A stretch of 64,000 nt of DNA, from NCBI GenBank assembly GCA_014377015.1, contig JACMQL010000028.1:1-64000 (forward strand), read 5' to 3'. The notes below the pieces were generated by a model. The model worked only from the letters and a program-made list of their open reading frames with translations. It searched no databases and was not told where the DNA came from. The translations under genes were made by a program, and so were the position numbers. Of the stretch, positions 4,306 to 36,772 are shown one piece after another; within the stretch, counting starts at the first letter, position 1; each line of letters opens with the position of its first letter. The DNA is from Actinomycetota bacterium. Lineage in GTDB: Bacteria; Actinomycetota; Actinomycetes; Nanopelagicales; Nanopelagicaceae.

Positions 4306-5490
4306 CTACCACTCCGCAAAAGAACCATCTTGGTGAACCCACTCCGGGATGCGGAAGCGATGACCTTTACCTGCGGCGTTGCGGACTTCTTTCTCATCAA
4401 TTTCTATTCCGAGACCCGGCAACTTCATCAGTTCGATGTATCCATCTTTGGATTGAAAAGGTGAGTAGTCGACAAGATATTTCATCAAGTCGCCAGTGTT
4501 ACCTTCACCGAGACCGAGTATTTGTTCTTGAATAAGGAAGTTGGGAGTAGCAAAATCGAGTTGTAAGCAAGCGGCGAGTGCAATTGGACCCAAGGGACAA
4601 TGTGGCGCCATATTTACGTTGAACGTCTCGGCCATTGCCGCAATTCGCCGCGTCTCGGAGATTCCACCCGCGTGACTTGGATCTGGTTGTGCAACTGCAA
4701 TGCCAGTGCGAAGGACGTCCGCAAAATCGCTACGCGAGAAGAGCCTTTCTCCAGTTGCGATTGGAATTGAAGTCGATTCAACTACCAACCCAAAGTGACT
4801 GGTGTACTCGGGCAGTACAGGTTCTTCGATGAACATCAAGTTATAAGGCTCGAGCAACGGGAAAATCCGGCGGGACATCGCCAAACTAAAACGTCCGTGA
4901 AAGTCCAGACACAGATCAATTTCGTCTCCAACGTATTGCCTTACGGCCTCCACGTTGGCGACGATCCGTTTGAGTTCGGCGGCAGTATCAATATGTTCCA
5001 AAGAATCGGCAGGACACCATTTTAGTGCGGTGAGCCCGCGATCAAGTTGAACCTGCACGCTTTCGAGGAGCTCCTGAGTGCCAACTTCAGTTGCGGCACG
5101 ACCATGTTCATCGCGACTTGGCTTGCCGCCAATATGTCCATAAATTCTTACTCGATCACGAACATGCCCACCGAGAAGTTGATGTACGGGTACGCCTAAT
5201 TTCTTACCCGCGATATCCCAAAGGGCTTGGTCAATACCGGCAACCGCGGAATTTAAGATTCCACCACCCCTGTAGAAGCCTCCCTTCATCATGCGTTGCC
5301 AATGGCGTTCTATTTGCAGTGGATCTCGACCGATTAGGTGATCCATCATTTCATCCACCGCGGCAGCAACGGTAAGGGCCTTTGCTTCAAGAACTGGCTC
5401 ACCCCAACCGGTGATGCCCTCGTCAGTCTCTATTTTTAAAAATAACCAGCGCGGATCAACGAAATAGAGTTTATAGTCGACAATTTTCAT
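4306..5490 (-). CDS. dgoD: D-galactonate dehydratase-like enolase-superfamily enzyme
   Basis: The sequence follows DgoD closely along its length, including the start (WLFLKIETDEGITGWGEPV), AGIDQALWDIAGK, HCPLGPIALAACL and the C-terminal tail ending in SFAEW. Enolase-superfamily residues are in place: D196 and H198 (LDFHGR), E222 (IEEP), E248 (GER), D270 and H297 (APHCPLGP). The reaction would be D-galactonate to 2-keto-3-deoxy-D-galactonate plus water in the cytoplasm. No dgoK/dgoA kinase-aldolase genes sit beside it; KdgK and Eda at 21,995-23,748 could serve instead, but that is inference. It is transcribed alone. Confidence 0.8.
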   Translation of the reverse strand: MKIVDYKLYFVDPRWLFLKIETDEGITGWGEPVLEAKALTVAAAVDEMMDHLIGRDPLQIERHWQRMMKGGFYRGGGILNSAVAGIDQALWDIAGKKLGVPVHQLLGGHVRDRVRIYGHIGGKPSRDEHGRAATEVGTQELLESVQVQLDRGLTALKWCPADSLEHIDTAAELKRIVANVEAVRQYVGDEIDLCLDFHGRFSLAMSRRIFPLLEPYNLMFIEEPVLPEYTSHFGLVVESTSIPIATGERLFSRSDFADVLRTGIAVAQPDPSHAGGISETRRIAAMAETFNVNMAPHCPLGPIALAACLQLDFATPNFLIQEQILGLGEGNTGDLMKYLVDYSPFQSKDGYIELMKLPGLGIEIDEKEVRNAAGKGHRFRIPEWVHQDGSFAEW

Positions 5491-6682: not shown

Positions 6683-7624
6683 ATGAGTATTAAATCGTTG
6701 CCATCTCGCGCAGATAAGAAGAAGACCGTCGTTTCTCGTTTCACTGATTTATTTGAGGGTAAATACTTCGCTTGGTTGTTGTTGGCACCAAGTTTGGCGA
6801 TGATTGCCTTCTTTATTTTCTATCCCTTATATAGAGGTTTAACGCTCGCTTTTACGCATACAATTTTGATCGAAAGTCCAGACTCAACCTTTGTAGGTCT
6901 AGATAATTTCCGACAACTCCTTAAAGATCCTCTTTTCTGGACCTCCACGCGGCACACCTTAATTTATTTGGTTATTGGGTTGATTTCCCAAGTAGCAGTA
7001 GGTCTCTTTGCCGCCGTATTGCTTAGTCGCGAGCGACGAATGATTTGGCTCCTTCGTATCATTCTGGTTATTCCATGGTTTGTCCCACCGGTCGTGACTG
7101 CTTATATGTGGCGCTTCATGCTGGATCCAGACTTTGGAATCATGGTGAAGTTGGCTCATTACATTGGTTTAGATCTCGGAGGAGCGGGAATCTGGGGAGA
7201 TCCGGACAAGACAATTTACGGAATTTTGTTCGTTGAATTATGGCGTTCCTATCCGTTCTTCATGCTCTTCTTCTTGGCGGGAATTCAGGGAATTCCAAAG
7301 GATATGCGCGAGTCCACATCTGTTGATGGCGCTTCGGCGCTCCAGCATTTCCGTTTCATCATCTTGCCGTTGATTAAGCCAGTTATGTTCATCTCCTCTC
7401 TTTTAGGTGCTATTCACCTTATTAATTCTCCGACCTTGATTTTGTTGATGTCTAATGGCGGTCCGGGCGATAGCACTTTGGTGCTGCCGCTGTACGCCTT
7501 CCGTAAGGCCTTCCAGAACTTTGATTTCGGTTACGCCTCGACAATTTCAGTAGCCGTACTAGTAGCCATTGCAGGATTTGCCATCGTATATGTTCGCTTT
7601 ATCGGATTTGGAAAAGAGGATTGA
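6683..7624 (+). CDS. Carbohydrate ABC transporter permease, MalF/UgpA type
   Basis: A six-helix inner-membrane permease of the CUT1 carbohydrate uptake class. The first helix lies at about residues 30-50 and the EAA loop reads ESTSVDGASALQHF-RFIILPLIKP near residue 215, which docks to the ATPase. It overlaps the next permease by one base (TGATG at 7622-7626), so translation is coupled. The binding protein follows at 8635. No ATPase gene belongs to this operon, so it probably shares a general MsmK-type ATPase encoded elsewhere. The substrate is not evident, but the neighbouring catabolic genes suggest a sugar or sugar acid. Confidence 0.9.
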   Translation: MSIKSLPSRADKKKTVVSRFTDLFEGKYFAWLLLAPSLAMIAFFIFYPLYRGLTLAFTHTILIESPDSTFVGLDNFRQLLKDPLFWTSTRHTLIYLVIGLISQVAVGLFAAVLLSRERRMIWLLRIILVIPWFVPPVVTAYMWRFMLDPDFGIMVKLAHYIGLDLGGAGIWGDPDKTIYGILFVELWRSYPFFMLFFLAGIQGIPKDMRESTSVDGASALQHFRFIILPLIKPVMFISSLLGAIHLINSPTLILLMSNGGPGDSTLVLPLYAFRKAFQNFDFGYASTISVAVLVAIAGFAIVYVRFIGFGKED

Positions 7625-8496
7625 TGACAATGACCTCTACGAATGAGAATCAAATCAAGCCGAAGAAAAAGAAAACTACCTTCGTAGCCAAACTCGGCAC
7701 CTTCGCAATTTCTATTTTCGTGATTTACGCTATCGCTCCGATTTTGTGGACGTTCTACACTTCTCTTCGCACTGGTCGAGATATCATGATTAATGCAACT
7801 GGTTTGAGTTTTAATAATCTATCGTTTGCTGCTTACGGAAGCGTATGGCGTGATACCAACTTCCCGGCGTTGGTACGCAACAGTTTAATTATTTGCACAA
7901 TTACCGTAATTTTAAGCCTTACTCTGGGTACTGGCGCTGCTTACGCGCTCTCACGCAGCAATTTCAGAGGTAGGCAAGGAGTGTTGCTCTCCTATATTTT
8001 GATCCGCTTAATTCCTGGAGTATTGCTATTAGTCCCAATTTATATTTTGATGTTCAAGATCCACCTGCTTGACACATATATAGGGCTAGCACTTGCTTAC
8101 ACAACCTTCACAATTCCCGCGACAGTCTGGTTCATGAAGGGTTTCTTCGATTCCTTGCCAACTGATCTGGAAAATGCGGCACGCATTGATGGATGCAGTC
8201 GTTTAGGCGCGATGTGGCGAGTTTCGCTACCTCTTGTGTTACCAGGATTGGCTGCGACTGGAACGCTGATCGCGATCGAAGCGTGGAATGACATTTTGTT
8301 CGCCTTGCTATTAACGTCTTCCAACAGATCTCGAACGTGGCCAGTAGGTATGCGGGAAATGATTGGTGAGTTCCAACTGCCCTGGGAACAGCTCACAGCA
8401 ACTGCATTCCTCAGTCTCATACCGGTACTCATTGGCTTTGCGTTAGTCGGAAGAAAGATGGTCGCCGGAATAACCGCTGGCAGTTTGAAAGAGTAG
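7624..8496 (+). CDS. Carbohydrate ABC transporter permease, MalG type
   Basis: The second permease of the heterodimer, with six predicted helices and the EAA loop ENAARIDGCSRLGAMW-RVSLPLVLPG near residue 180. I chose the ATG at 7624, which overlaps the TGA of the upstream permease by one base, over the TTG one codon earlier. The operon continues, after a 138-bp gap with its own promoter-like element, to the binding-protein gene, so binding protein and membrane parts can be made in different amounts. Confidence 0.9.
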   Translation: MTMTSTNENQIKPKKKKTTFVAKLGTFAISIFVIYAIAPILWTFYTSLRTGRDIMINATGLSFNNLSFAAYGSVWRDTNFPALVRNSLIICTITVILSLTLGTGAAYALSRSNFRGRQGVLLSYILIRLIPGVLLLVPIYILMFKIHLLDTYIGLALAYTTFTIPATVWFMKGFFDSLPTDLENAARIDGCSRLGAMWRVSLPLVLPGLAATGTLIAIEAWNDILFALLLTSSNRSRTWPVGMREMIGEFQLPWEQLTATAFLSLIPVLIGFALVGRKMVAGITAGSLKE

Positions 8497-8634: not shown

Positions 8635-9963
8635 ATGGAAAATCCAATTGGCAATCTCGATCGAAGATCACTCCTTAAGGGAGTGGGAATAGCTGGTGCA
8701 GCAACCGCAGTCGGAGCCACTGCTGCTACACCCTCACTCGCCGCAACAAAAAAGGTAAACACACCAGGAACAGGCGACGTAACTTATTGGAACCACTTCA
8801 CCGCTGCTCAGGAGCGTCAAGGCTTCACCGCGGTTACCGATGGATTCGCTAAGGCGTCACCAAAGATCAATCTCAGAGTGGAGACCATCCTTAACGATGA
8901 CTGGATGACCAAGTATGTAGCTGCAGTTACTGCTAAGTCGGGTCCAGACGCGCTGATGATGACCGCTCCTCGTATGGGTGACATGATTAAACTTGGTGGA
9001 GTTGCAGAAATCACTACATATGCAAAGCAGTGGCCAGGACTTGAGCCTTCTACTGAGGCACAAAAAGCATTTGTTATCAAGGGTAAGTACTACGGAATTC
9101 CAGTATTCACATTCGTAGACTGGTTGTACTACCGCAAGGATCTTCTCGACGCTAAGGGCATCAAGTCAGCTCCTAAGACTCTTGAAGACTTTCGTCAGAC
9201 TGCGATTGCAATGAGCGATCCATCAAAGGGAATTTACGGATTCGGTTTGCGTGGTGGCTCGGGCGGCGGCGGATATATCCCAAAGATGATCCATGCTTTC
9301 AACGGACCGATCATTAACTGGCGCACACTCAACCGCACCGTTGACTTTGGTGCACTGCGCGATGCAATTGCCTTCTGGGTCAACTTGTCAGTTAAGGATA
9401 AGGCTGTACCACCAACTGTTACTGGTGACGGCTTTGCGCAGATTTTCCAGGCGTTCTATTCGGGAAAGACTGCCATGGTTGCCCACCACACCGGAAGTTT
9501 CGTATCCGTTGGTCAAAACTGGAAGTACGGCACCCAAGTTGAAACCGCCAAGATGCCTGATGGTCCAAAGGCGCCCACCGGCGTCTTCTCTCCATTGGGT
9601 AACGCAGTCTTCAAGGGAGCAAAGAACCCAGATGGCGCATTTGAGTTTGCCAGCTACTGGGGCTCTGCTCCAGCGCAAGGCAAGTTCTTAGCGGCCACCG
9701 GTTACATCCCTACTGCTACCGCAGCCATTGATGACCCATTTGTTACGGCTAACGTGCAGTTCAAGGTTGCCTTCGGTGCACTTCAGTCGGGTTATTACAA
9801 CGACTACACATTCCCTAACTACACGACCTGGGCTTCAAACACGTGCCTTCCAGAAGTTCAGAAGTCGCTTAATGGATCACAAACTATTGACGTTACCGCG
9901 AAGAAGATTTACGACGAACTCGGTCGTATCTGCAAGATCAACGCGCGCAACCGCACTTCCTGA
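8635..9963 (+). CDS. Tat-exported sugar-binding protein of the first ABC transporter
   Basis: An extracellular solute-binding protein of family 1 size (442 residues). The N-terminus has a twin-arginine signal (N-L-D-R-R-S-L-L-K-G at about 7-16), a weakly hydrophobic stretch and an Ala-rich cleavage region (PSLAA), so it should be exported folded by Tat. The mature part starts with the CUT1-type pattern DVTYWNHFTAAQ. ATG is preceded by a purine-rich AGAGAGAGAC. It is followed by a strong terminator at 9976. The ligand is not identifiable from sequence. Confidence 0.9.
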   Translation: MENPIGNLDRRSLLKGVGIAGAATAVGATAATPSLAATKKVNTPGTGDVTYWNHFTAAQERQGFTAVTDGFAKASPKINLRVETILNDDWMTKYVAAVTAKSGPDALMMTAPRMGDMIKLGGVAEITTYAKQWPGLEPSTEAQKAFVIKGKYYGIPVFTFVDWLYYRKDLLDAKGIKSAPKTLEDFRQTAIAMSDPSKGIYGFGLRGGSGGGGYIPKMIHAFNGPIINWRTLNRTVDFGALRDAIAFWVNLSVKDKAVPPTVTGDGFAQIFQAFYSGKTAMVAHHTGSFVSVGQNWKYGTQVETAKMPDGPKAPTGVFSPLGNAVFKGAKNPDGAFEFASYWGSAPAQGKFLAATGYIPTATAAIDDPFVTANVQFKVAFGALQSGYYNDYTFPNYTTWASNTCLPEVQKSLNGSQTIDVTAKKIYDELGRICKINARNRTS

Positions 9964-9975
9964 TTAATTAAATAT

Positions 9976-10018
9976 AAACTCCCGAGGTTCCAACCTAATA
10001 GTTGGTCCTCGGGAGTTT
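9976..10018. terminator. Bidirectional terminator between convergent genes
   Basis: AAACTCCCGAGG (9976-9987) and CCTCGGGAGTTT (10007-10018) form a perfect 12-bp stem; inside, CCAAC/GTTGG extends it. A/T tracts on both sides suit termination of the binding-protein gene and of the opposing operon ending at 10,019. Confidence 0.85.
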
Positions 10019-11122
10019 CTATTTGTGCATGGAAATTTCTTGCGCGGTAGCTTCGGCAAGTGCAGCGAGTGATCCTCTCTCACTCAGGTTCATCACCTGG
10101 AAATTAGTCGAGGCCATCGAAATAAATTCAATTTCAGAAGCAGCACCTGTAGTGATGGCTAGTACCAATTCTTTCGACCGGATGAGAGATCTGCCTTCCT
10201 GAGTCATGGGAAGAAGCTGTACCTCATCAAAATGATCTCGGATATCCTCGGCCAGACTCGTGAGAGCCTCATTGCAGACCAAGAGGCCGATCGGTTTTGT
10301 GGGATCCGCGACAACGCGCGAGGAAGGGAAAATCGGCAAAACCGTTTTCGTGTATTCGCTAAAGGTGCGCACTCGTGAAATGAGCCCGAGGAGCTCCTCA
10401 ACGATTCTCTCAGTCGGGTCTGTGCTGGCAAGATCGAAATCGCCCTGGAAGTGTGCGTGGAAATCCGAGTTCGAACTTACGTTGATTACCGGAGTCATCA
10501 CTGTGCCCACCGGATATTCATCTCGTGGAGTGAAGGCGACGATCGCATGCGTCCCCTCGAGCATCCAGGTACGTAAATCTTGGTCAAAGTTGGCGGAAAA
10601 CTGGCGCAAAATTGGCGAGATGCCCCGCGCCTGGAACTGAGCTACAAGGTCGGTAAGTGCGACGGGTTCATTTTCGTACCCGACGATGACCGAAGGAGAG
10701 GCAATCTCACCAAGTCCAGGAAGTGATTGGGTGCTTAAGTCTGTTGCACCGGAAACCGCGATCTTGATGGCTGCCTCCTGGTTCACTCCATTGCTGATCA
10801 TTAAGTACTCGGTAGTTGAATTTTTTGCGAGCAACTCACCGATGACATCAGATGCCCGGATCGCTTCGTCTCCTGTTGCAATGACAAACGCGCTCGCGGT
10901 ATGTGGATGGGAGATCAGGGCAGGCAGAGTCACTTCACGGAATTCGGTGAGGGCTCTTAAATCATCACCTGCAATGTTGCTTTTAATAACTGTAAGGTCC
11001 ACCAGTTTAGAAATGCCTACTACAGTCTCGTTAGCTCCTTCGGAAAAAGAAATCAGAAGATTGAAAGTGCGGATGCCTGTTGCATGTAGATGGCTATAAC
11101 CGATGAGAGGGTCAGTCGACAT
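10019..11122 (-). CDS. Divergent UxaA/GarD-family (altronate/galactarate dehydratase-like) protein
   Basis: The chain follows the second and third domains of the UxaA/GarD family: the start GYSHLHATGIRTFNLL matches the G-x-x-R-x-D-G-R-x-G-T-R-N region, EFREVTLPALISHPHTASAFVIATG matches the RTLAGLARHPNxAGxLVVGLG block, and MTPVINVSSNSDF with an upstream GTHAIVAFT matches the C-terminal block. Cysteines conserved near the family's NCSATV and GC motifs are replaced here (FSEGANETV), and an N-terminal SAF domain is absent. So it may be inactive, regulatory, or have a changed chemistry. It is the last gene of a four-gene operon with overlapping ends (11 bp shared with the MFS gene). Confidence 0.55.
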   Translation of the reverse strand: MSTDPLIGYSHLHATGIRTFNLLISFSEGANETVVGISKLVDLTVIKSNIAGDDLRALTEFREVTLPALISHPHTASAFVIATGDEAIRASDVIGELLAKNSTTEYLMISNGVNQEAAIKIAVSGATDLSTQSLPGLGEIASPSVIVGYENEPVALTDLVAQFQARGISPILRQFSANFDQDLRTWMLEGTHAIVAFTPRDEYPVGTVMTPVINVSSNSDFHAHFQGDFDLASTDPTERIVEELLGLISRVRTFSEYTKTVLPIFPSSRVVADPTKPIGLLVCNEALTSLAEDIRDHFDEVQLLPMTQEGRSLIRSKELVLAITTGAASEIEFISMASTNFQVMNLSERGSLAALAEATAQEISMHK

Positions 11123-12320
11123 CTTTGACCGCCGTTTTTCTTACGAACATTACCGCCATGAGCATCGCTCCGGGGATTATGAGTGCAATAGGAAGTGAAA
11201 GCCATTGCGCCGTCCAAGCGATGACTGCCTTCACCAGATATGTAAGCCCATTGTTGATTACACCGAGTTGCCCGATGACTACTCCACCTGGTGACTTAGA
11301 TTGTTGATTTGCGATGTTCATAAACATTGGACCCATAAACGAAGAACAGAAGCCAGAAATCGCAAATGCCAGACTGACTAAAATGAATGAAAGTGTATGG
11401 TGGTTCACGCTCAATCGGTCGCTCAACAGGATTCCGATGATGAAGCTTGACCCACCAACTAACCCACCGACTTTAATTAAGGAGTCAACACGGTATTTTG
11501 CAAGGAATCGATGGAAAGTCAGGCGACCCAGAATCATTGCGCACATGAAAATTATGTAAGGAATTGTGGCGACTCCAGCTGAAAATCCTAGATTTTCTTT
11601 CGAGTAAATCGTTGCCCAATCCCCAGCCGAGAACTCCAACTGCACGCCAAGTAGCATGCCAAAACTGACCATCCAATTCACTTCGAAGGATTTGAAAACG
11701 GTGCGAAGGCGGTAAGAATTGTCTTTAGCGCTGGTGCCAGCAAGTTCGTGCGGGCGAATTTTGAGAATCAAGTAGATGATTCCGATGCCAGAAATCAAGA
11801 CCGCAAGTCCGATGTGTAAAACAAGTGAAACTCTGGTGGTGAGGTATCCAGCGAGCAAGATAGAGACCAGCGCGCCACTGCTCCAGGCGCCCGCAGTGCG
11901 AGGCACCAGAACCTCACCACTTAATTCCTGTTCATAAAGTACTTGTGCGTTGATCGAAATATGAAAGCCCGCTACCGCGGCTCCGATGAGAAGATTGAGA
12001 ATCAAGAAGATCGGCACGGAGGTTACGTGAACGATCAAACCCAGCCCGATCAGGAAGCTCATTGAGCTTGCCGCCATTACGATTGTCGTCCCAAATCGGT
12101 GAACAATGTGCCCGCCGATGAGTAGCAACACAATTCCGCCTAAAGCTCCAACGCTGATGACAGAACCGAATTGACCGTTGGTGAGGGACATTTGAGCTTT
12201 CACTTCTGGAAAGCGTGGAACCCAACCCATAATGGAAAAACCAAAGAGAAAAAATATCCCGTAGAGGTATTTTTTTGTATTTTTGGAATTTTCGTCGCTA
12301 CGTTTATGTGTGACTGTCAT
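11112..12320 (-). CDS. MFS transporter, likely sugar or sugar-acid carrier
   Basis: About twelve hydrophobic segments across 402 residues, with a central cytoplasmic loop near residues 190-215, fit the major facilitator superfamily. The early segment IMGWVPRFPEVKAQMSLTNGQFGSV resembles FucP/YbjJ-like MFS members, which carry sugars or act as efflux proteins. The ATG overlaps the stop of the epimerase-like gene by 4 bp and its end overlaps the following gene by 11 bp, so it is embedded in the lactonase/epimerase operon. That context supports uptake of the substrate handled by the two enzymes, but the substrate is unproven. Confidence 0.85.
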   Translation of the reverse strand: MTVTHKRSDENSKNTKKYLYGIFFLFGFSIMGWVPRFPEVKAQMSLTNGQFGSVISVGALGGIVLLLIGGHIVHRFGTTIVMAASSMSFLIGLGLIVHVTSVPIFLILNLLIGAAVAGFHISINAQVLYEQELSGEVLVPRTAGAWSSGALVSILLAGYLTTRVSLVLHIGLAVLISGIGIIYLILKIRPHELAGTSAKDNSYRLRTVFKSFEVNWMVSFGMLLGVQLEFSAGDWATIYSKENLGFSAGVATIPYIIFMCAMILGRLTFHRFLAKYRVDSLIKVGGLVGGSSFIIGILLSDRLSVNHHTLSFILVSLAFAISGFCSSFMGPMFMNIANQQSKSPGGVVIGQLGVINNGLTYLVKAVIAWTAQWLSLPIALIIPGAMLMAVMFVRKTAVKDVD

Positions 12321-13366
12321 ATCTCAAATACTTCGAAGGAAAGTACCTGCACCTTCTCCGAATGCGGAACGAAGGTTAACGTCGTTCCGTTTGCGAGTGC
12401 ATCCGCAATTCCGCTTGTCGAGTAGCTTGAAAAGGGCTCTAATCCGATGTTGTAGTGATGTCCGTACCATGGGTCACCCTTAGTGGCACCGTATTCTTGC
12501 CAATACCAAAGGTATGGAAAGACCGTGTTATCCCACTTGACTTCGGCAGCTAACTTTTTGCTTGGTGTTTCAACTCGATACTTTCCTTCAACCATTTTGT
12601 GTACATACAACATTTCACCTGTGGTGTCGCGCGGTGGCAATTGCGAGAAATCGATGTCGTTTCCGTTCTTGTCCTTGCCGACCGGCCAAGGGAATCGATC
12701 TTCGCTTCCGATACGTCGTGGAGTTGTTAAATCTGCGAAATGGTGAGGAATTACTTCCCCATTACCTTCAATGATGACGCGGCTGTCGGTATCGAGGAAA
12801 GGTGGACCAAAAGTGAAATGTTCTCCCCACATGGCCTGCAAAGTTTGATCTGAAAGATTGGTCACTTTCTCGATAAGTTCGCACTTAGCTGAACCTGAAG
12901 TGATGGTGAGAGTCTTTTCGACTTTATACGGAAATCGCTTTGTGAAAACGGTGAATTTCACAGAGGATTTTTCTGGCGTGTCTTCTACGATTTCATAAGT
13001 CCACGGGACCACGGAAATTTCGGCATGCTGGCCCATGGCAACACCGTTGTACTCCGAAGGTGCTCCACCGTTTGGAAAAATGGTCTGCCATCCGCCCGGA
13101 TACTCATCCATGAACGAATCAAGTTGGCCAGGAGCATCGGCATCAATGGCGTTTCCACGAATGCCCGTGAAAGTAAGCCACGCAAAGTCCATGTCTCTTG
13201 GCTTGTAAAGAAATTCAACGACATCTGCACCTCGGCCAGCCAATACAGTGATTCGCAACTTCTCATTCTCGATCACCAGCGCCGATAGGTGCCCGAGTGA
13301 GACTCGCTCGGTAATACGACAACCGAAATTCCGCGCTTTTATCGGCGTATCAAAGCGTTCAACCAT
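12317..13366 (-). CDS. Aldose 1-epimerase-like protein (DUF4432 type)
   Basis: A beta-rich protein of the galactose-mutarotase fold: blocks LRITVLAGRGADVVEFLYK, an aromatic WxYW segment (LWYWQEYG), MWGEHFTFGPPF and HHYNIGLEPFSS correspond to the sugar-binding and C-terminal blocks of DUF4432 proteins. It would act on free sugars in the cytoplasm, presenting the right anomer to a downstream enzyme. I chose the ATG at 13366, which overlaps the lactonase stop (ATGGTTGA), over a longer frame starting at 13405. It lies directly behind a gluconolactonase-type gene, a sensible pairing: epimerisation and lactone opening. Confidence 0.75.
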   Translation of the reverse strand: MVERFDTPIKARNFGCRITERVSLGHLSALVIENEKLRITVLAGRGADVVEFLYKPRDMDFAWLTFTGIRGNAIDADAPGQLDSFMDEYPGGWQTIFPNGGAPSEYNGVAMGQHAEISVVPWTYEIVEDTPEKSSVKFTVFTKRFPYKVEKTLTITSGSAKCELIEKVTNLSDQTLQAMWGEHFTFGPPFLDTDSRVIIEGNGEVIPHHFADLTTPRRIGSEDRFPWPVGKDKNGNDIDFSQLPPRDTTGEMLYVHKMVEGKYRVETPSKKLAAEVKWDNTVFPYLWYWQEYGATKGDPWYGHHYNIGLEPFSSYSTSGIADALANGTTLTFVPHSEKVQVLSFEVFEI

Positions 13367-14246
13367 GAAACACCGTGCTTTCTTGTCCGGAATAACCCAG
13401 ACCATCGATTGCCAACGGCAATCCGTTGAGGGGTTCAGTGACGATATTCGTTCCGCCCGAGGCAGAAGTGACGATCAATGTCTTCCCGTCCTTTCCAGCA
13501 AAAGCGCACGAACTGGGCTGTTGTACGGGTACAGGAATCACTTCCTTAAGGACTCCATCCGAGGAGTAGACCTCGACTCGATATCCGCCCCACATTGCGA
13601 CAAAAAGTGAACCATCGTCGGAGACGCACATTCCATCTGGAACTGATCCATCGTCGGCAAAAGTAATGAGCACTCGTCGATTAGAAATATCGCCGCTTTC
13701 TAGATCAAAATCATATTTCCACATGACGTGCTGCATGCTGTCCACGAAATAGAAACTCCTATTGTCGGGACTCCAGCCCAAACCGTTGGGCAATGTCAAG
13801 CCAGTTTCCATTGTTCGGATAACTTTATTTTCATCAATCATGTGAAGCTTTCCTTGACCCGGTGCAAAGCCGAGTTCGCAACTGCCTGCCCAGTATCGGC
13901 CCGCAGAATCTGCCTTTGCGTCGTTCATTCTTTCATTGGCAGAGAGAAAACTAATATCGGACGAATACAGACCATTCGCCGAGATTAAACCGAATCCTTC
14001 TTTCACCGCAGCAAAGTATCCACCACCACTTCGCTCGACGATTGCACCGATAACGGTCGATACTCTAAAAGTTTTGGTCGAAGTGTCAGTGACAGAATTC
14101 AATAACACTTGGTGCCATTTATTGCCTGCGATATCCACCCACGACAAGATTCCTGTTGTGGAATTCCAGATCGGACCTTCGCCGCAATCCGATCTTTCAT
14201 TTGAAATTGCTCTAAGTGAAAATGATTCAGGAGTTCGTGTGAGCAC
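13359..14246 (-). CDS. SMP-30/gluconolactonase (regucalcin) family lactonase
   Basis: A six-bladed beta-propeller of 295 residues. The start has CGEGPIWN with the metal-binding Glu, then LSWVDIAGN; the middle has LTLPNGLGWSPDNRSFYFVDS (metal-binding Asn and the N-G-L/D pattern), and the late VPDGMCVSDDGSLFVAMWGG carries the catalytic/metal Asp. The family opens sugar lactones to aldonic acids using a divalent metal. As the first gene of a four-gene operon with an epimerase-like protein and an MFS carrier, it probably delivers a sugar acid to the dehydratases nearby. It is divergent from manD across a palindrome-rich 158-bp region. Confidence 0.9.
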   Translation of the reverse strand: MLTRTPESFSLRAISNERSDCGEGPIWNSTTGILSWVDIAGNKWHQVLLNSVTDTSTKTFRVSTVIGAIVERSGGGYFAAVKEGFGLISANGLYSSDISFLSANERMNDAKADSAGRYWAGSCELGFAPGQGKLHMIDENKVIRTMETGLTLPNGLGWSPDNRSFYFVDSMQHVMWKYDFDLESGDISNRRVLITFADDGSVPDGMCVSDDGSLFVAMWGGYRVEVYSSDGVLKEVIPVPVQQPSSCAFAGKDGKTLIVTSASGGTNIVTEPLNGLPLAIDGLGYSGQESTVFHG

Positions 14247-19079: not shown

Positions 19080-20033
19080 ATGCGTCCAGGGTTCGGTCAA
19101 TTTCAAGTCGCCAGCGAAGAATACTTGTTGTTTGCAAAGCAGTTCGGGGCAACTGACGTTCTTCTCAACACTCCACTCATCCCGGGAGATGGTGGGCGTT
19201 GGGCGTTGCAAGATCTTGTGAAATTGCGTCTGCGTGTAGAACAATTTGATCTTTCGCTGACTGCTCTTGAAAACGTGCCTACCAGTTTCTACGACCACAT
19301 CATGCTCAATGGTCCCCGTCGTGACGAGCAAATTGAAAATATGATCGCCACCGTTCGCAACATCGCGCGCGCAGGTATTCCAATCTTTGGCTACAACTGG
19401 ATGCCATCTCACGTATGGCGTACCCCACCCGTGGCTATCCGTGGCGGCGCACTTGCAACGGCATTTGATGAAAACCTAGCCAAGAATTATCCATTAACTC
19501 ACGACCGCGTTTACAGCGAAGAAGAGATGTGGGCCAACCTTGAATACTGGATCAAGATCATCACGCCGATCGCAGAAGAAGAAGGAATCCGCCTCGGAAT
19601 CCATCCCTGCGACCCTCCTGTTGAGTCATTAGGCGGAATTCCTCAACTCCTACGCAGTTTTGCGGCGTACAAGCGCCTGGTAGAAATCTATCCGAGTGAT
19701 TCAAATGCCATTGAATTCTGCCAGGGAACCTTCTCTGAAATGAAGGATGATATCTACGAGATGATCGAGTACTTCGTATCACGAAAGAAGATTCTTTACG
19801 TTCACTTCCGCAATGTCTCTGGCAAGGTACCTGTCTTCTACGAAGAGTTCGTGAATACCGGTTATGTAGATATGCATAAAGCGATGAAGATTTACCACAA
19901 GCATAATTTCGACGGCTTCTTCATCGACGATCACGTTCCACACACACATGGAGATACACCTTGGGGACACCGTGGTCGCGCATTCGCCAACGGCTACATC
20001 CAAGCCATGATTGAGGCGGTTCAAAAAGGATAA
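19080..20033 (+). CDS. uxuA: Mannonate dehydratase, xylose-isomerase-like fold
   Basis: UxuA catalyses D-mannonate to 2-keto-3-deoxy-D-gluconate in the hexuronate pathway, using Fe2+ or Mn2+. Family blocks are present: LGIHPCDPPVESLGGIPQ, IEFCQGTFSEM (metal-binding Cys), YVHFRNVSGKVP (metal-binding His) and DGFFIDDHVPHTHGDTPWGHRGRAFANGYI (metal-binding Asp and His). At 317 residues it is shorter than the E. coli enzyme (about 394) and matches the shorter clade. AAGGGGAAG lies just before the ATG. Its stop overlaps the SDR start (TAATG). Being in the transporter operon suggests the imported compound is converted to mannonate. UxaC and UxuB are not encoded in the window. Confidence 0.9.
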   Translation: MRPGFGQFQVASEEYLLFAKQFGATDVLLNTPLIPGDGGRWALQDLVKLRLRVEQFDLSLTALENVPTSFYDHIMLNGPRRDEQIENMIATVRNIARAGIPIFGYNWMPSHVWRTPPVAIRGGALATAFDENLAKNYPLTHDRVYSEEEMWANLEYWIKIITPIAEEEGIRLGIHPCDPPVESLGGIPQLLRSFAAYKRLVEIYPSDSNAIEFCQGTFSEMKDDIYEMIEYFVSRKKILYVHFRNVSGKVPVFYEEFVNTGYVDMHKAMKIYHKHNFDGFFIDDHVPHTHGDTPWGHRGRAFANGYIQAMIEAVQKG

Positions 20034-20922: not shown

Positions 20923-20943
20923 TGAATACGGCAGGATTTGCTC

Positions 20944-21994: not shown

Positions 21995-23089
21995 TTAACG
22001 TTGCACTCGCGCCGAAGCGCCTTTCACTAACGCTTGCACTTCTGAAAGAGTTGCCATACTCGTATCGCCAGGTGTTGTCATTGCAAGTGCACCGTGTGCG
22101 GCGCCGTAATCGACTGCTGATTGCAAGCTATCAAGTTCCATAAGTCCATAAATTAACCCTGAAGCAAAACTATCTCCGCCACCGACCCTATCGAAAATCT
22201 CCAACTCCGGTCGCTGTGTGGACTCCACAAAACCATCTTTAGTCGACCAAGCGATGGCGGCCCAATCATTGACCGTCGCTGAATGGACTCCGCGCAAAGT
22301 TGTTGCAACCACCTTGAAATTCGGGAATTTTTCAACAGCTTGAGTGATCATATTGCGAAAGTTTGCCGAAGAAAGATCGCGTAAGTCTGCGGAAGTATCC
22401 TCAACAGTGAGACCTAAGCAAGCTGTAAAATCTTCCTCGTTGCCAATCATTACGTCGACGTATTTGGCGAGCTGAGTGTTTACCTCCTGCGCCTTCTTCT
22501 TTCCTCCGATGTCCTTCCAGAGACTGGAACGATAGTTAAGGTCGTAAGAAACTACCGTTCCATACTTCTTTGCGGCTTTCATGGCCTCTTCAGCGACCGC
22601 GGCAGAATTTTCAGAAAGGGCGGCGAAAATCCCTCCCGTGTGCAGCCAGCGAGTTTGCAGTTTTCCGAAGATCATTTCCCAATCGATGTCGCCGGGCCTA
22701 ACTTGCGAAATGGCGGTACTGCCACGATCTGAAACGCCTAATGCGCCACGGACACCAAACCCACGTTCAGTGAAATTTAATCCGTTGCGCACTTTGCGAC
22801 CAACCCCGTCGAAGTCCATCCATTTGATAAATGAGGAATCGACTCCACCTTGCAAAATGAGATCCTCCACCAGGCGACCGACTTGGTTTTCGGCTAGCGC
22901 AGTTACAATCGCTGTCCGCATGCCAAAACATCTGCGCAATCCGCGGGCGACGTTGTACTCTCCTCCGCCTTCCCAGACATCGAAGGATCGCGCCGTATGA
23001 ATCCTGCCATCGCCTGGATCGAGGCGCAGCATTACTTCACCGAGGGAAACCAGATCATAGGTCACGCAATCTGAACCCTTAATATCCAT
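21995..23089 (-). CDS. kdgK: 2-keto-3-deoxygluconate kinase (PfkB family)
   Basis: A ribokinase-family sugar kinase of 364 residues. The N-terminus has LGEVMLRLDPGD and GGGEYNVARGL (substrate-binding glycines), and the C-terminal signature D-R-V-G-G-G-D-S-F-A-S-G at 300-311 contains the catalytic Asp. KdgK phosphorylates 2-keto-3-deoxygluconate to KDPG with ATP. It lies 8 bp behind the aldolase gene on the same strand, a classical kinase-aldolase pair of the Entner-Doudoroff branch, and converges on the LacI gene. The long N-terminal extension (about 10 residues) is unremarkable. Confidence 0.88.
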   Translation of the reverse strand: MDIKGSDCVTYDLVSLGEVMLRLDPGDGRIHTARSFDVWEGGGEYNVARGLRRCFGMRTAIVTALAENQVGRLVEDLILQGGVDSSFIKWMDFDGVGRKVRNGLNFTERGFGVRGALGVSDRGSTAISQVRPGDIDWEMIFGKLQTRWLHTGGIFAALSENSAAVAEEAMKAAKKYGTVVSYDLNYRSSLWKDIGGKKKAQEVNTQLAKYVDVMIGNEEDFTACLGLTVEDTSADLRDLSSANFRNMITQAVEKFPNFKVVATTLRGVHSATVNDWAAIAWSTKDGFVESTQRPELEIFDRVGGGDSFASGLIYGLMELDSLQSAVDYGAAHGALAMTTPGDTSMATLSEVQALVKGASARVQR

Positions 23090-23097
23090 ATTTATAC

Positions 23098-23748
23098 CTA
23101 CTTTCCAATCTGGGACGCTGATTCAATCGCCGACTTAGTCAGACCCGACATCTCGGCCCGATTCTGAGATTCCACAAGAGCGGCTGAGACCATCCAACTT
23201 CCACCGATTGCTGAGACGAACTTCTCTTGCAGATATGAAGCCATGTTGCTCAGGTTAACTCCACCCGTTGGGACAAACTTGAGATCTGGAAATGGAGCGG
23301 CGATGGCTTTAAGCGAAGTGATTCCACCGAGGGCTTCGGCCGGGAACCATTTAACAACGTTAAATCCAAGCGAGAGCGCCAGCATGATCTCCGATGGAGT
23401 GCTCACACCTGGTAGGAAAGAAAGTTGACACTTCTCCGCCATTTCTGCAATCGGCGCGAGCAGGCCAGGGGAGACCGCAAACGCGAGTCCTTCATCTTTT
23501 GCGCGCACGATATCCTCTGGACTCTTAACTGACCCGACTCCAACAATGAGTCCATCGACTTTCTTGAGTTCGCCCACGGCGTCCCAACTTGCGGGAGTAC
23601 GCAGAGTCACTTCGACAACTGGCAAACCACCATTGACGAGCGCCTCACCTACTGCGCGAGCATCCGCAGCGTTCCTTATAACTAGAACTGGCACGACGCG
23701 ATACGCCAATATCTCTGCTAACGGAAATCTACCCTGAGAGTCGGTCAC
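23098..23748 (-). CDS. eda: KDPG aldolase
   Basis: A class I aldolase of normal length (216 residues). E46 in VVEVTLRTP and the Schiff-base K133 in NVVKWFPAEA are at the positions known from the E. coli enzyme, and the phosphate loop FVPTGGVNLSN follows. It cleaves 2-keto-3-deoxy-6-phosphogluconate to pyruvate and glyceraldehyde 3-phosphate; some members also cleave the galacto epimer or 4-hydroxy-2-oxoglutarate. The start is GTG. It heads the eda-kdgK unit, divergent from the 23,889 dehydratase across an operator-like palindrome. Confidence 0.92.
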   Translation of the reverse strand: MTDSQGRFPLAEILAYRVVPVLVIRNAADARAVGEALVNGGLPVVEVTLRTPASWDAVGELKKVDGLIVGVGSVKSPEDIVRAKDEGLAFAVSPGLLAPIAEMAEKCQLSFLPGVSTPSEIMLALSLGFNVVKWFPAEALGGITSLKAIAAPFPDLKFVPTGGVNLSNMASYLQEKFVSAIGGSWMVSAALVESQNRAEMSGLTKSAIESASQIGK

Positions 23749-35038: not shown

Positions 35039-36772
35039 TTACGATCGGCCGATTACAGGGGGAACAAATCTGCGCATCTCGGGTGTCGGCGCTCGCAAGA
35101 AATCAAAATCAGATCCCTCATCGGGTTGGAGTACATGGGCTTGATAAAGTGATGGCCAGCCACGCAAGTGCTCTGTCTGCAATCCTGCCCATGATGCTTT
35201 TCTCACCGCGAGCTCCTCATCTGAAATTTTGAGAGAGAGTGAGCGACGCGAAACATCAAGTTCAATGATGTCACCATCCTTCACTAAACCAATCACGCCT
35301 CCGACAGCGCCTTCTGGAGAGACATGCAAAACACATGTGCCGAAAGATGTTCCGCTCATGCGCGAATCAGTGACTCTCACCATATCGACAACGCCCTGTG
35401 CGGCAAGTTTCTTTGGAATTGGAATCATTCCCCACTCAGGCATTCCTGGCACGCCAACCGCACCGCATCCAGAGAGAACAAGAACGCTCTCCTTTGTAAC
35501 TTCGAGCTCGGGGTCATCAATGCGATTTCGCATATCGTTATATCCCGTAAAAACAACTGCCGGACCGGAATGAATTATTAGTTCATCGGATGCAGCCGAG
35601 ACTTTAATGACCGCACCAGTGGGCGCAAGATTTCCGAAGACCACCTCAAAAGCACCCGTGGTCCGCAACGGATTATCGAGGCCCCGAATGGCCTTAGATG
35701 TGGCCGATTTCGAAGTGCGTGAATCACCTAACGATTTTCCTGTGAGGACTTTTGAATCGAGTTCCAGCAGATCATCCATCTCATTTATCAACGCAGGCAA
35801 TCCTCCTGCAGCGTGAAAATCTTGAATCAAACCAGTACCCGAAGGCTCGACATCTGCAAGTACTGGAATATTTTCTCCGAGAGTTGCAATCTTCTCTAGC
35901 GTGAGCTCACCGCCGATGCGCCCGGAAATTGCGATCAGATGGATAAGTGCGTTAGTTGATCCACCACAGGCGTGCAGTACTCGAATTGCATTGCGAAAAG
36001 CTTTCGGGGTCATGATTTCTGAAGGAACTGTGTTGGCCTTTACCATCGCAACAATTTCTTTTCCAGAATCCACAGCCGCAACTTTGCGGGCGGGATCTCC
36101 GCTAGGAATTGTGGAAGTGCCTGGCAGGCTCATTCCTAAAGCTTCAACCATAAGTGCAACTGATGATGCGGTACCCATGGTGTTGCACGATCCGAGCCCG
36201 CAGTTGAGGCAACCTTCGAATTCGTTCCATTCCTCTTGTGAGATTTTTCCTGATCGAAAATCAGCCCACATTCGCCACAGATCGGTGCCGGTGCCAATTT
36301 TCTTTCCGCGATACACCGCAGCTGGTCGTGCCCCCGCAGTAAACATGATGGTTGGGATGTTTGCACTAGCAGCGCCCATCAGCGCACCTGGCACGCTCTT
36401 ATCGCAGTTAGCGAGTAAGACAATTCCGTCCAGGGGGTAGGACCGCACGTATTCTTCGATTTCCATTGACAGAAGATTTCGATAGAGCATGGCAGAGGGC
36501 TTCATCAAATCTTCACCCAGGGACATGACGGGGAAAACAACTGGTATTCCACCCGCCTCAATCACTCCGGCTTTTATGTCTGCAATGTAGTCACGTAATG
36601 GGAGATTGCAAGGATTGAGTTCGCTCGAAGAATCAGCAATTCCGATTATCGGACGGTCATTATCTGGCTCGACTTTGTATCCCACTGATGCCATGACGAC
36701 GCGGTGAGATAGGGCAACCTCATCATTTCCGTTGAACCACTGACTGCTTCGAAGAGTGTATGTGCTTGTCAT
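35039..36772 (-). CDS. IlvD/EDD-family sugar-acid dehydratase (arabonate/xylonate type)
   Basis: An iron-sulfur dehydratase of 577 residues. The N-terminus RSSQWFNGNDEVALSHR matches sugar-acid dehydratases rather than dihydroxyacid dehydratase IlvD. Cluster cysteines are in LLANCDKSVPGALMG, NCGLGSCNTMGTASS and LHACGGSTNALIHL. The C-terminal CGAVGVPGMPEWG and SRMSGTSFGTCVLH blocks are typical. Likely reaction: an aldonate such as L-arabonate or D-xylonate to its 2-keto-3-deoxy acid. It is monocistronic and converges on the nuclease gene; no kinase or aldolase is adjacent. IlvD function cannot be excluded from sequence alone. Confidence 0.8.
   Translation of the reverse strand: MTSTYTLRSSQWFNGNDEVALSHRVVMASVGYKVEPDNDRPIIGIADSSSELNPCNLPLRDYIADIKAGVIEAGGIPVVFPVMSLGEDLMKPSAMLYRNLLSMEIEEYVRSYPLDGIVLLANCDKSVPGALMGAASANIPTIMFTAGARPAAVYRGKKIGTGTDLWRMWADFRSGKISQEEWNEFEGCLNCGLGSCNTMGTASSVALMVEALGMSLPGTSTIPSGDPARKVAAVDSGKEIVAMVKANTVPSEIMTPKAFRNAIRVLHACGGSTNALIHLIAISGRIGGELTLEKIATLGENIPVLADVEPSGTGLIQDFHAAGGLPALINEMDDLLELDSKVLTGKSLGDSRTSKSATSKAIRGLDNPLRTTGAFEVVFGNLAPTGAVIKVSAASDELIIHSGPAVVFTGYNDMRNRIDDPELEVTKESVLVLSGCGAVGVPGMPEWGMIPIPKKLAAQGVVDMVRVTDSRMSGTSFGTCVLHVSPEGAVGGVIGLVKDGDIIELDVSRRSLSLKISDEELAVRKASWAGLQTEHLRGWPSLYQAHVLQPDEGSDFDFLRAPTPEMRRFVPPVIGRS

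Follow-up and report, generated by a model that had tools for sequence, protein, structure and literature searches.

The galactarate dehydratase GarD of Escherichia coli carries a SAF domain. Within the UxaA/GarD superfamily (COG2721), four cysteines have been proposed as common iron ligands, corresponding to Cys134, Cys173, Cys208 and Cys276 of the D-arabinonate dehydratase C785_RS13685, as stated in PMC6336799. The same article describes sulfolactate sulfo-lyase, SuyAB, as a functional superfamily enzyme composed of separate subunits and without conservation of the four cysteines (PMC6336799). A search of open-licence papers for a three-part altronate dehydratase, or for the protein described here, yielded nothing relevant.

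The protein described here, the query, is encoded in an actinobacterial stretch of 64,000 nt that was analyzed as a whole and is referred to as the window. Its gene has an ATG start and an intact frame, and is the last in a head-to-tail run of lactonase, DUF4432, MFS and query genes. The initial annotation had described it as tightly coupled to a lactonase, an epimerase and an MFS carrier, and this coupling is supported by consecutive ORFs that overlap end to start, with listed overlaps of 47, 4 and 11 nt in run order, given that the start of the DUF4432 ORF was set at its longest option. The features of the run are as follows, where UxaA2 (like UxaA3, below) is a name coined in this analysis.

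10019..11122, minus strand: UxaA2-like protein without iron-site cysteines, 367 aa (the query)
10733..11101, minus strand: N-terminal lobe, residues 8-130, GD_AH_second-like; the Cys1 position is G29, the Cys2 loop is absent and the Cys3 position is D85
10328..10705, minus strand: second lobe, residues 140-265, a GD_AH_C remnant without the CGGSD / GNxxGG / EKSLG part
10430..10516, minus strand: most conserved stretch in the query group, residues 203-231, YPxGT...PV[IL]N...S..H...[DE]FDL
10022..10315, minus strand: C-terminal extension, residues 270-367, an alternating beta-alpha domain when predicted alone
11112..12320, minus strand: MFS transporter, 11-nt overlap with the query gene (ORF list, Pfam)
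12317..13405, minus strand: DUF4432 protein, named an epimerase in the initial annotation (ORF list, Pfam)
13359..14246, minus strand: SMP-30/gluconolactonase-like lactonase (SGL; ORF list, Pfam)

Both core domains of the UxaA/GarD family are found in the query in collinear order, each below the Pfam threshold: GD_AH_second (PF04295) on residues 60-129 with 14.1 bits against a cut-off of 27.3 (E 0.05), and GD_AH_C (PF20629) on residues 185-233 with 12.1 bits against a cut-off of 26.8 (E 0.12). The match is lifted above chance by a homologue in genome G003, which is 43% identical to the query and exceeds the GD_AH_second cut-off with 38.7 bits, by matches of UxaA2 proteins to the query of up to 78 bits (E 2.5e-23), and by the predicted structure of the core, whose top match in the PDB is E. 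coli GarD (6u7l; Z 15.7 over 230 residues, rmsd 4.0, 13% identity; next-best structure, Z 10.6). The GarD match came from realigning Foldseek's 1000 best candidates, GarD not being among Foldseek's own 50 best rows. The query model, built from 6 sequences, has a mean pLDDT of 65.9; the core (about residues 13-265) lies mostly above 70, and most of the C-terminus falls below 50 when modeled as part of the full-length protein. The query is a true UxaA/GarD relative, and the family blocks that had been recognized earlier hold up in the Pfam order, the relatives and the GarD-like predicted fold alike. Sequence searches of NCBIfam and the PDB with the query gave nothing convincing; a YqgE match in NCBIfam (E 0.058), a DNA ligase in the PDB (E 1.4) and a profile match to a designed protein (E 7e-4) were all judged spurious. 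Membership in another family, which had been named as the finding that would overturn the assignment, receives no support from the Pfam, NCBIfam or PDB sequence searches.

Aligned with the family, the NCSATV-type block of the query reads GANETV (residues 29-34), just as first noted, the H-x-x-GC block is gone, which agrees with the reported loss of a GC motif, and the equivalent of GLGCE is ATGDE. None of the four family cysteines is left in the alignment, their positions being occupied by G29, a gap, D85 and Y149, so that the claim of lost cysteines stands and no overlooked intact active site came to light; the sole cysteine of the protein, C283, lies within the C-terminal extension. Among the rows of the query group, to which genome G235 contributes two partial ones, Cys1 is present in 2 of the 5 that cover it, Cys2 in 0/5, Cys3 in 2/6 and Cys4 in 0/5, and all 5 rows covering its place lack the Cys2 loop. 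G003 and G022 keep both Cys1 and Cys3; the window, G234 and G235 have Gly and Asp instead. The span containing CGGSD, ANP, GNxxGG and EKSLG measures 41 residues in the 5 covering rows of the query group; its CGGSD...ANP and GNxxGG...EKSLG parts are missing from these rows and occur in the 36 UxaA3 and the 13 canonical proteins. The query is best read as having lost the iron chemistry of the family, and very probably is not a dehydratase of the family's type. Similarity-based annotation could label proteins of this type altronate dehydratases, very likely wrongly.

The window genome (G000) also holds, on its contig C33, adjacent genes for a 98-aa SAF protein, a 269-aa GD_AH_second protein (94 bits) and a 386-aa protein that has GD_AH_C in full (304 bits). 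The second of these represents UxaA2 (about 270 aa), which has Cys1-3 and lacks about 100 GD_AH_C residues, and the third represents UxaA3 (about 386 aa), which has Cys4 and the whole of GD_AH_C. Our alignment comprised 6 query-group rows, 37 UxaA2, 36 UxaA3 and 13 canonical proteins, after two partial proteins, the UxaA2 of L069 and the UxaA3 of L058, had been left out. Cys1-4 occur in 13, 12, 12 and 13 of the 13 canonical proteins; Cys1-3 are found in 37/37 UxaA2 and 0/36 UxaA3, and Cys4 in 0/37 and 36/36, respectively. The CGGSD-EKSLG span follows the same division, with 33-43 residues in UxaA2 (37 rows), 144 in UxaA3 (36) and 143-145 in the canonical proteins (13). With decay this complementary, the enzyme looks like an obligate heteromer in which each half supplies what the other lacks. 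A strict neighbour test, which may overlook genes whose predicted starts are too long or whose SAF motifs are unusual, places UxaA3 immediately after UxaA2 in 33/37 cases and SAF before it in 30/37. The split trio is seen at C33 of the window genome, at L027:8075-10337, and also at L026 and L028-L031. In some relatives the trio adjoins genes that would be expected together in a galacturonate pathway, one for a UxaC-family isomerase and one for a mannitol-dehydrogenase-family protein: both lie beside it in L030, and the dehydrogenase gene is likewise found in L026 and L029. Inspection by eye revealed neither of these neighbours beside the trio of the window genome.

This split enzyme context explains both the missing cysteines of the query and its missing SAF domain. 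The loss of SAF that had been noted is correct as an observation, with no Pfam match to SAF in the query up to E 1, but it is not special to the query, because SAF is encoded by a separate gene in this bacterial family. Pfam found no SAF domain in the three operon partners either, and inspection of the ORF lists by eye showed no SAF or UxaA3 neighbours at the five query-group loci. We rejected as improbable the view of the query as a whole UxaA/GarD protein minus SAF, given the separate SAF gene and the grouping of the query with UxaA2.

Two trees were computed, the first with 4 query-group rows (without the G235 pieces), 15/37 UxaA2 and 15/36 UxaA3 sequences chosen for spread, and the second with the longer G235 piece included and 15/37 UxaA2; long branches were flagged in both. 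The query group is monophyletic (100/99), UxaA2 forms a clade (96/95), and the two together lie on one side of a 100/99 branch. The query group is a fast-evolving sister branch of UxaA2 that carries the same deletion of about 100 GD_AH_C residues. Of 69 positions at which UxaA2 proteins hardly vary, the query retains 23. Positions invariant within the query group crowd at residues 190-231 (16/42 versus 31/309 elsewhere; p 1.2e-5, for a region picked after the alignment had been seen). Inside the group, the window and G003 pair with support of 85/90, and a clade of the window, G234 and G235 was not rejected (p-AU 0.448), the trees allowing for one loss of Cys1 and Cys3 or two. At these two positions (10868-10870 and 11036-11038 in the window), Gly and Asp are shared by the window and the distant G234/G235 pair even though the nearest relative of the window keeps both cysteines, which would reflect either parallel replacement or an incompletely resolved tree. 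The contrast between G003 and G022, with two cysteines, and their relatives with none makes the steps of the loss testable.

The last ~100 residues of the query are absent from the aligned UxaA2 proteins and are common to the query group. Predicted alone, this extension is modeled as a four-strand alternating alpha/beta domain (pLDDT 75, from 3 sequences). No clear fold family emerged for it, the best Z of 9.5 lying among common alpha/beta folds, and Pfam and PDB sequence searches with the extension gave no match of weight.

Members of the query group were found in 5 of the 296 genomes of the bacterial family (G000, G003, G022, G234 and G235); the frames are intact and 343-374 aa long in four of them, and in the fifth, G235, the gene lies on two contigs. 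An order-level search, also of 296 genomes, added no further members, and of 394 genomes drawn from the class, the 8 with a match at E 1e-5 are all members of the same bacterial family. No relatives were found in viral contigs, nor did a single-sequence scan of the contig collection with the query find any; an alignment-based scan gave 6 loci, of which 2 fall in the query group and, to judge by their length and place, are the G003 and G022 contigs again. The loci from this collection carry the label Actinomycetota, and some of them Actinomycetes as well. The element common to all five loci lies on the other side of the query gene, and comprises in the window:

6683..7624, plus strand: ABC importer permease 1
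7621..8496, plus strand: ABC importer permease 2
8635..9963, plus strand: solute-binding protein (SBP) of the importer, with a Tat-like signal, below the Pfam cut-off; conserved convergent neighbour
9970..10024, no strand assigned: inverted repeat between the convergent genes, 18-nt arms, 94% complementary; minus-strand RNA -31.1 kcal/mol, z -7.5

The SBP of one ABC sugar importer converges tail-to-tail on the query-group gene in 5/5 genomes, and both permeases follow at 4/5 loci, the G003 contig stopping inside the second permease. An inverted repeat lies between the two convergent genes at all five loci; the repeat of the window, at 9970..10024, is probably a two-way terminator and does not appear in a consensus scan restricted to loops of 3-8. 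The upstream side varies. In G003 the query homologue is preceded by an SDR gene and an enolase-superfamily gene, both below NCBIfam cut-offs, the latter having L-rhamnonate dehydratase as its top-scoring match (308.7 bits against a cut-off of 393); in G022 by a divergent pyridine-nucleotide oxidoreductase; in G234 by a protein without a Pfam match; and in G235 by a histidine-phosphatase-family protein. The four-gene operon that was to be sought elsewhere occurs, among the five carriers, only in the window genome, and a conserved operon of this kind was rejected on account of the upstream partners, which vary among the lineages seen.

The wider surroundings in the window (4306-36772) form a dense sugar-acid island with two sets of ABC permeases. 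It includes enolase-superfamily proteins at 4306, 14405 and 23889, a UxuA-like protein at 19080, an NAD-epimerase-family protein at 20033, a LacI regulator at 20938, a PfkB sugar kinase at 21995, a KDPG aldolase at 23098 and an IlvD/EDD-type dehydratase at 35039.

The SBP itself is present in 9/296 genomes (E up to 1e-60). Four of the nine, all of one genus and 78-89% complete, show no query homologue, so the importer seems not to need the query; an enolase-superfamily gene lies upstream of the importer in these genomes. At the corresponding loci (L097-L100, genus g12) this holds in 4/4, with three such genes confirmed by search and, at the fourth locus, a second such gene likewise confirmed. 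A FAD-type oxidoreductase was seen by eye downstream of the SBP at 3/4 of them, one being confirmed by search.

The query evolves far faster than the importer beside it. Between G000 and G003 its identity is 43%, compared with 86% for the SBP and 92% for permease 2 (214 residues available), and between G234 and G235 it is 53% (partial), compared with 91% and 90%. In these two closest pairs, codon positions 1/2/3 differ by 46/34/69% and 38/27/66%, respectively. The order of third over first over second position indicates that the query protein is constrained, but loosely; dN/dS for the query group was not computable because synonymous sites are saturated.

Taken together, descent from UxaA2, lost cysteines with a partial catalytic domain, an added domain and an importer neighbour suggest that a retired enzyme part has probably been reused. 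Comparison shows the query to be a derived relative of the UxaA2 half of a split altronate-dehydratase-type enzyme, with a predicted two-lobed, GarD-like core, without the iron-site cysteines and with an added C-terminal domain. It has presumably abandoned sugar-acid dehydration by the family's iron mechanism. Most plausibly it would bind the sugar acid that is imported, or an intermediate of the pathway, in a cleft around YPxGT...PVIN...H...DFDL, and relay the bound state through the C-terminal domain. On this reading, to which we give about an even chance, the query would be a non-catalytic, sugar-acid-binding accessory or regulatory relative of UxaA2, mostly partnerless, that serves the importer and an oxidative sugar pathway. 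Since the Pfam scan found no DNA-binding domain in the query, a transcriptional role is not indicated. Two of the five carriers (G000 and G022) do have UxaA3, which counts against an accessory role, and since the convergent genes are not co-transcribed, the importer link may mean a shared island only. More tentatively, the dead half of a split iron-dependent sugar-acid dehydratase may have become an intracellular signalling protein of a new class, which would bind sugar acids, have an added alpha/beta output domain and serve a single ABC sugar importer family of streamlined actinobacteria.

Because sulfolactate sulfo-lyase works though its four cysteines are not conserved, the missing cysteines alone are no proof of lost catalysis. 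The main rival to an accessory role is a new iron-free enzyme. Such an enzyme, possible though rather doubtful in our estimate, would have its cleft reshaped for another reaction on sugar acids or lactones (as an epimerase, isomerase or lyase), and its site would be completed by the C-terminal domain. The query does sit in an oxidative sugar-acid module in 2/5 genomes (lactonase, DUF4432 and MFS in the window; SDR and the enolase-superfamily gene in G003), nine polar residues (R18, D54, H72, E86, Y203, N214, H222, D230 and E256) do not vary in the rows that cover them, the three cysteine-less genomes all have Asp in place of Cys3, and SuyAB, as described in PMC6336799, is a precedent for function without the four cysteines. 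Yet an enzyme of this kind fits poorly with a query that changes far more quickly than the genes around it (between G000 and G003, 43% identity versus 86% for the SBP), with the missing CGGSD half of the former active site, and with upstream genes in G022, G234 and G235 that are not recognizable as sugar-acid genes.

Two further explanations are less likely. The patchy occurrence (5/296 genomes), fast evolution, stepwise loss of cysteines and lack of a detected GD_AH_C partner in 3/5 carriers would suit an orphan subunit in decay that does little and persists on a sugar-acid island by chance; this is made unlikely by frames of 343-374 aa that stay open across three genera, by the codon-position pattern of a constrained protein, by the clustered invariant motif and by the shared C-terminal extension. 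Alternatively, the query could be a small subunit that pairs with UxaA3, or with another GD_AH_C protein, and modulates UxaA3, as the sister relationship to UxaA2 and the UxaA3 genes of G000 and G022 might suggest. This we consider quite improbable, as no GD_AH_C protein was found in G003 (92% complete), G234 (76%) or G235 (65%), and the split enzyme of G000 sits on a separate contig with its own UxaA2. If the query is indeed a reused accessory protein, it shows a route by which the splitting of an enzyme into complementary halves frees one half for a new job, with the partner gone, the metal site eroded stepwise and a domain added.

Set against the systems known to us, the query model finds its best structural match in GarD, which differs in being a single longer chain (526 residues in entry 6u7l) whose C-terminal part matches UxaA3. 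With the D-arabinonate dehydratase C785_RS13685 and its superfamily (PMC6336799) the query shares descent, but it has no equivalent of any of the four cysteines, as judged through the family alignment. SuyAB, compared here by its description in the same article (PMC6336799), is likewise a separate-subunit superfamily member without the four conserved cysteines and, unlike the query, is a characterized lyase. With UxaA2 (window genome C33, L020:1459-2268) the query shares the two-lobe core by alignment, the gap of about 100 residues in GD_AH_C and the G....PVIN...S..H...FD stretch, at 22-31% identity in the matches looked at. UxaA2, however, has Cys1-3 and usually stands beside SAF and UxaA3, whereas the query has no cysteine site and neither of these neighbours, and carries an extra C-terminal domain of its own.
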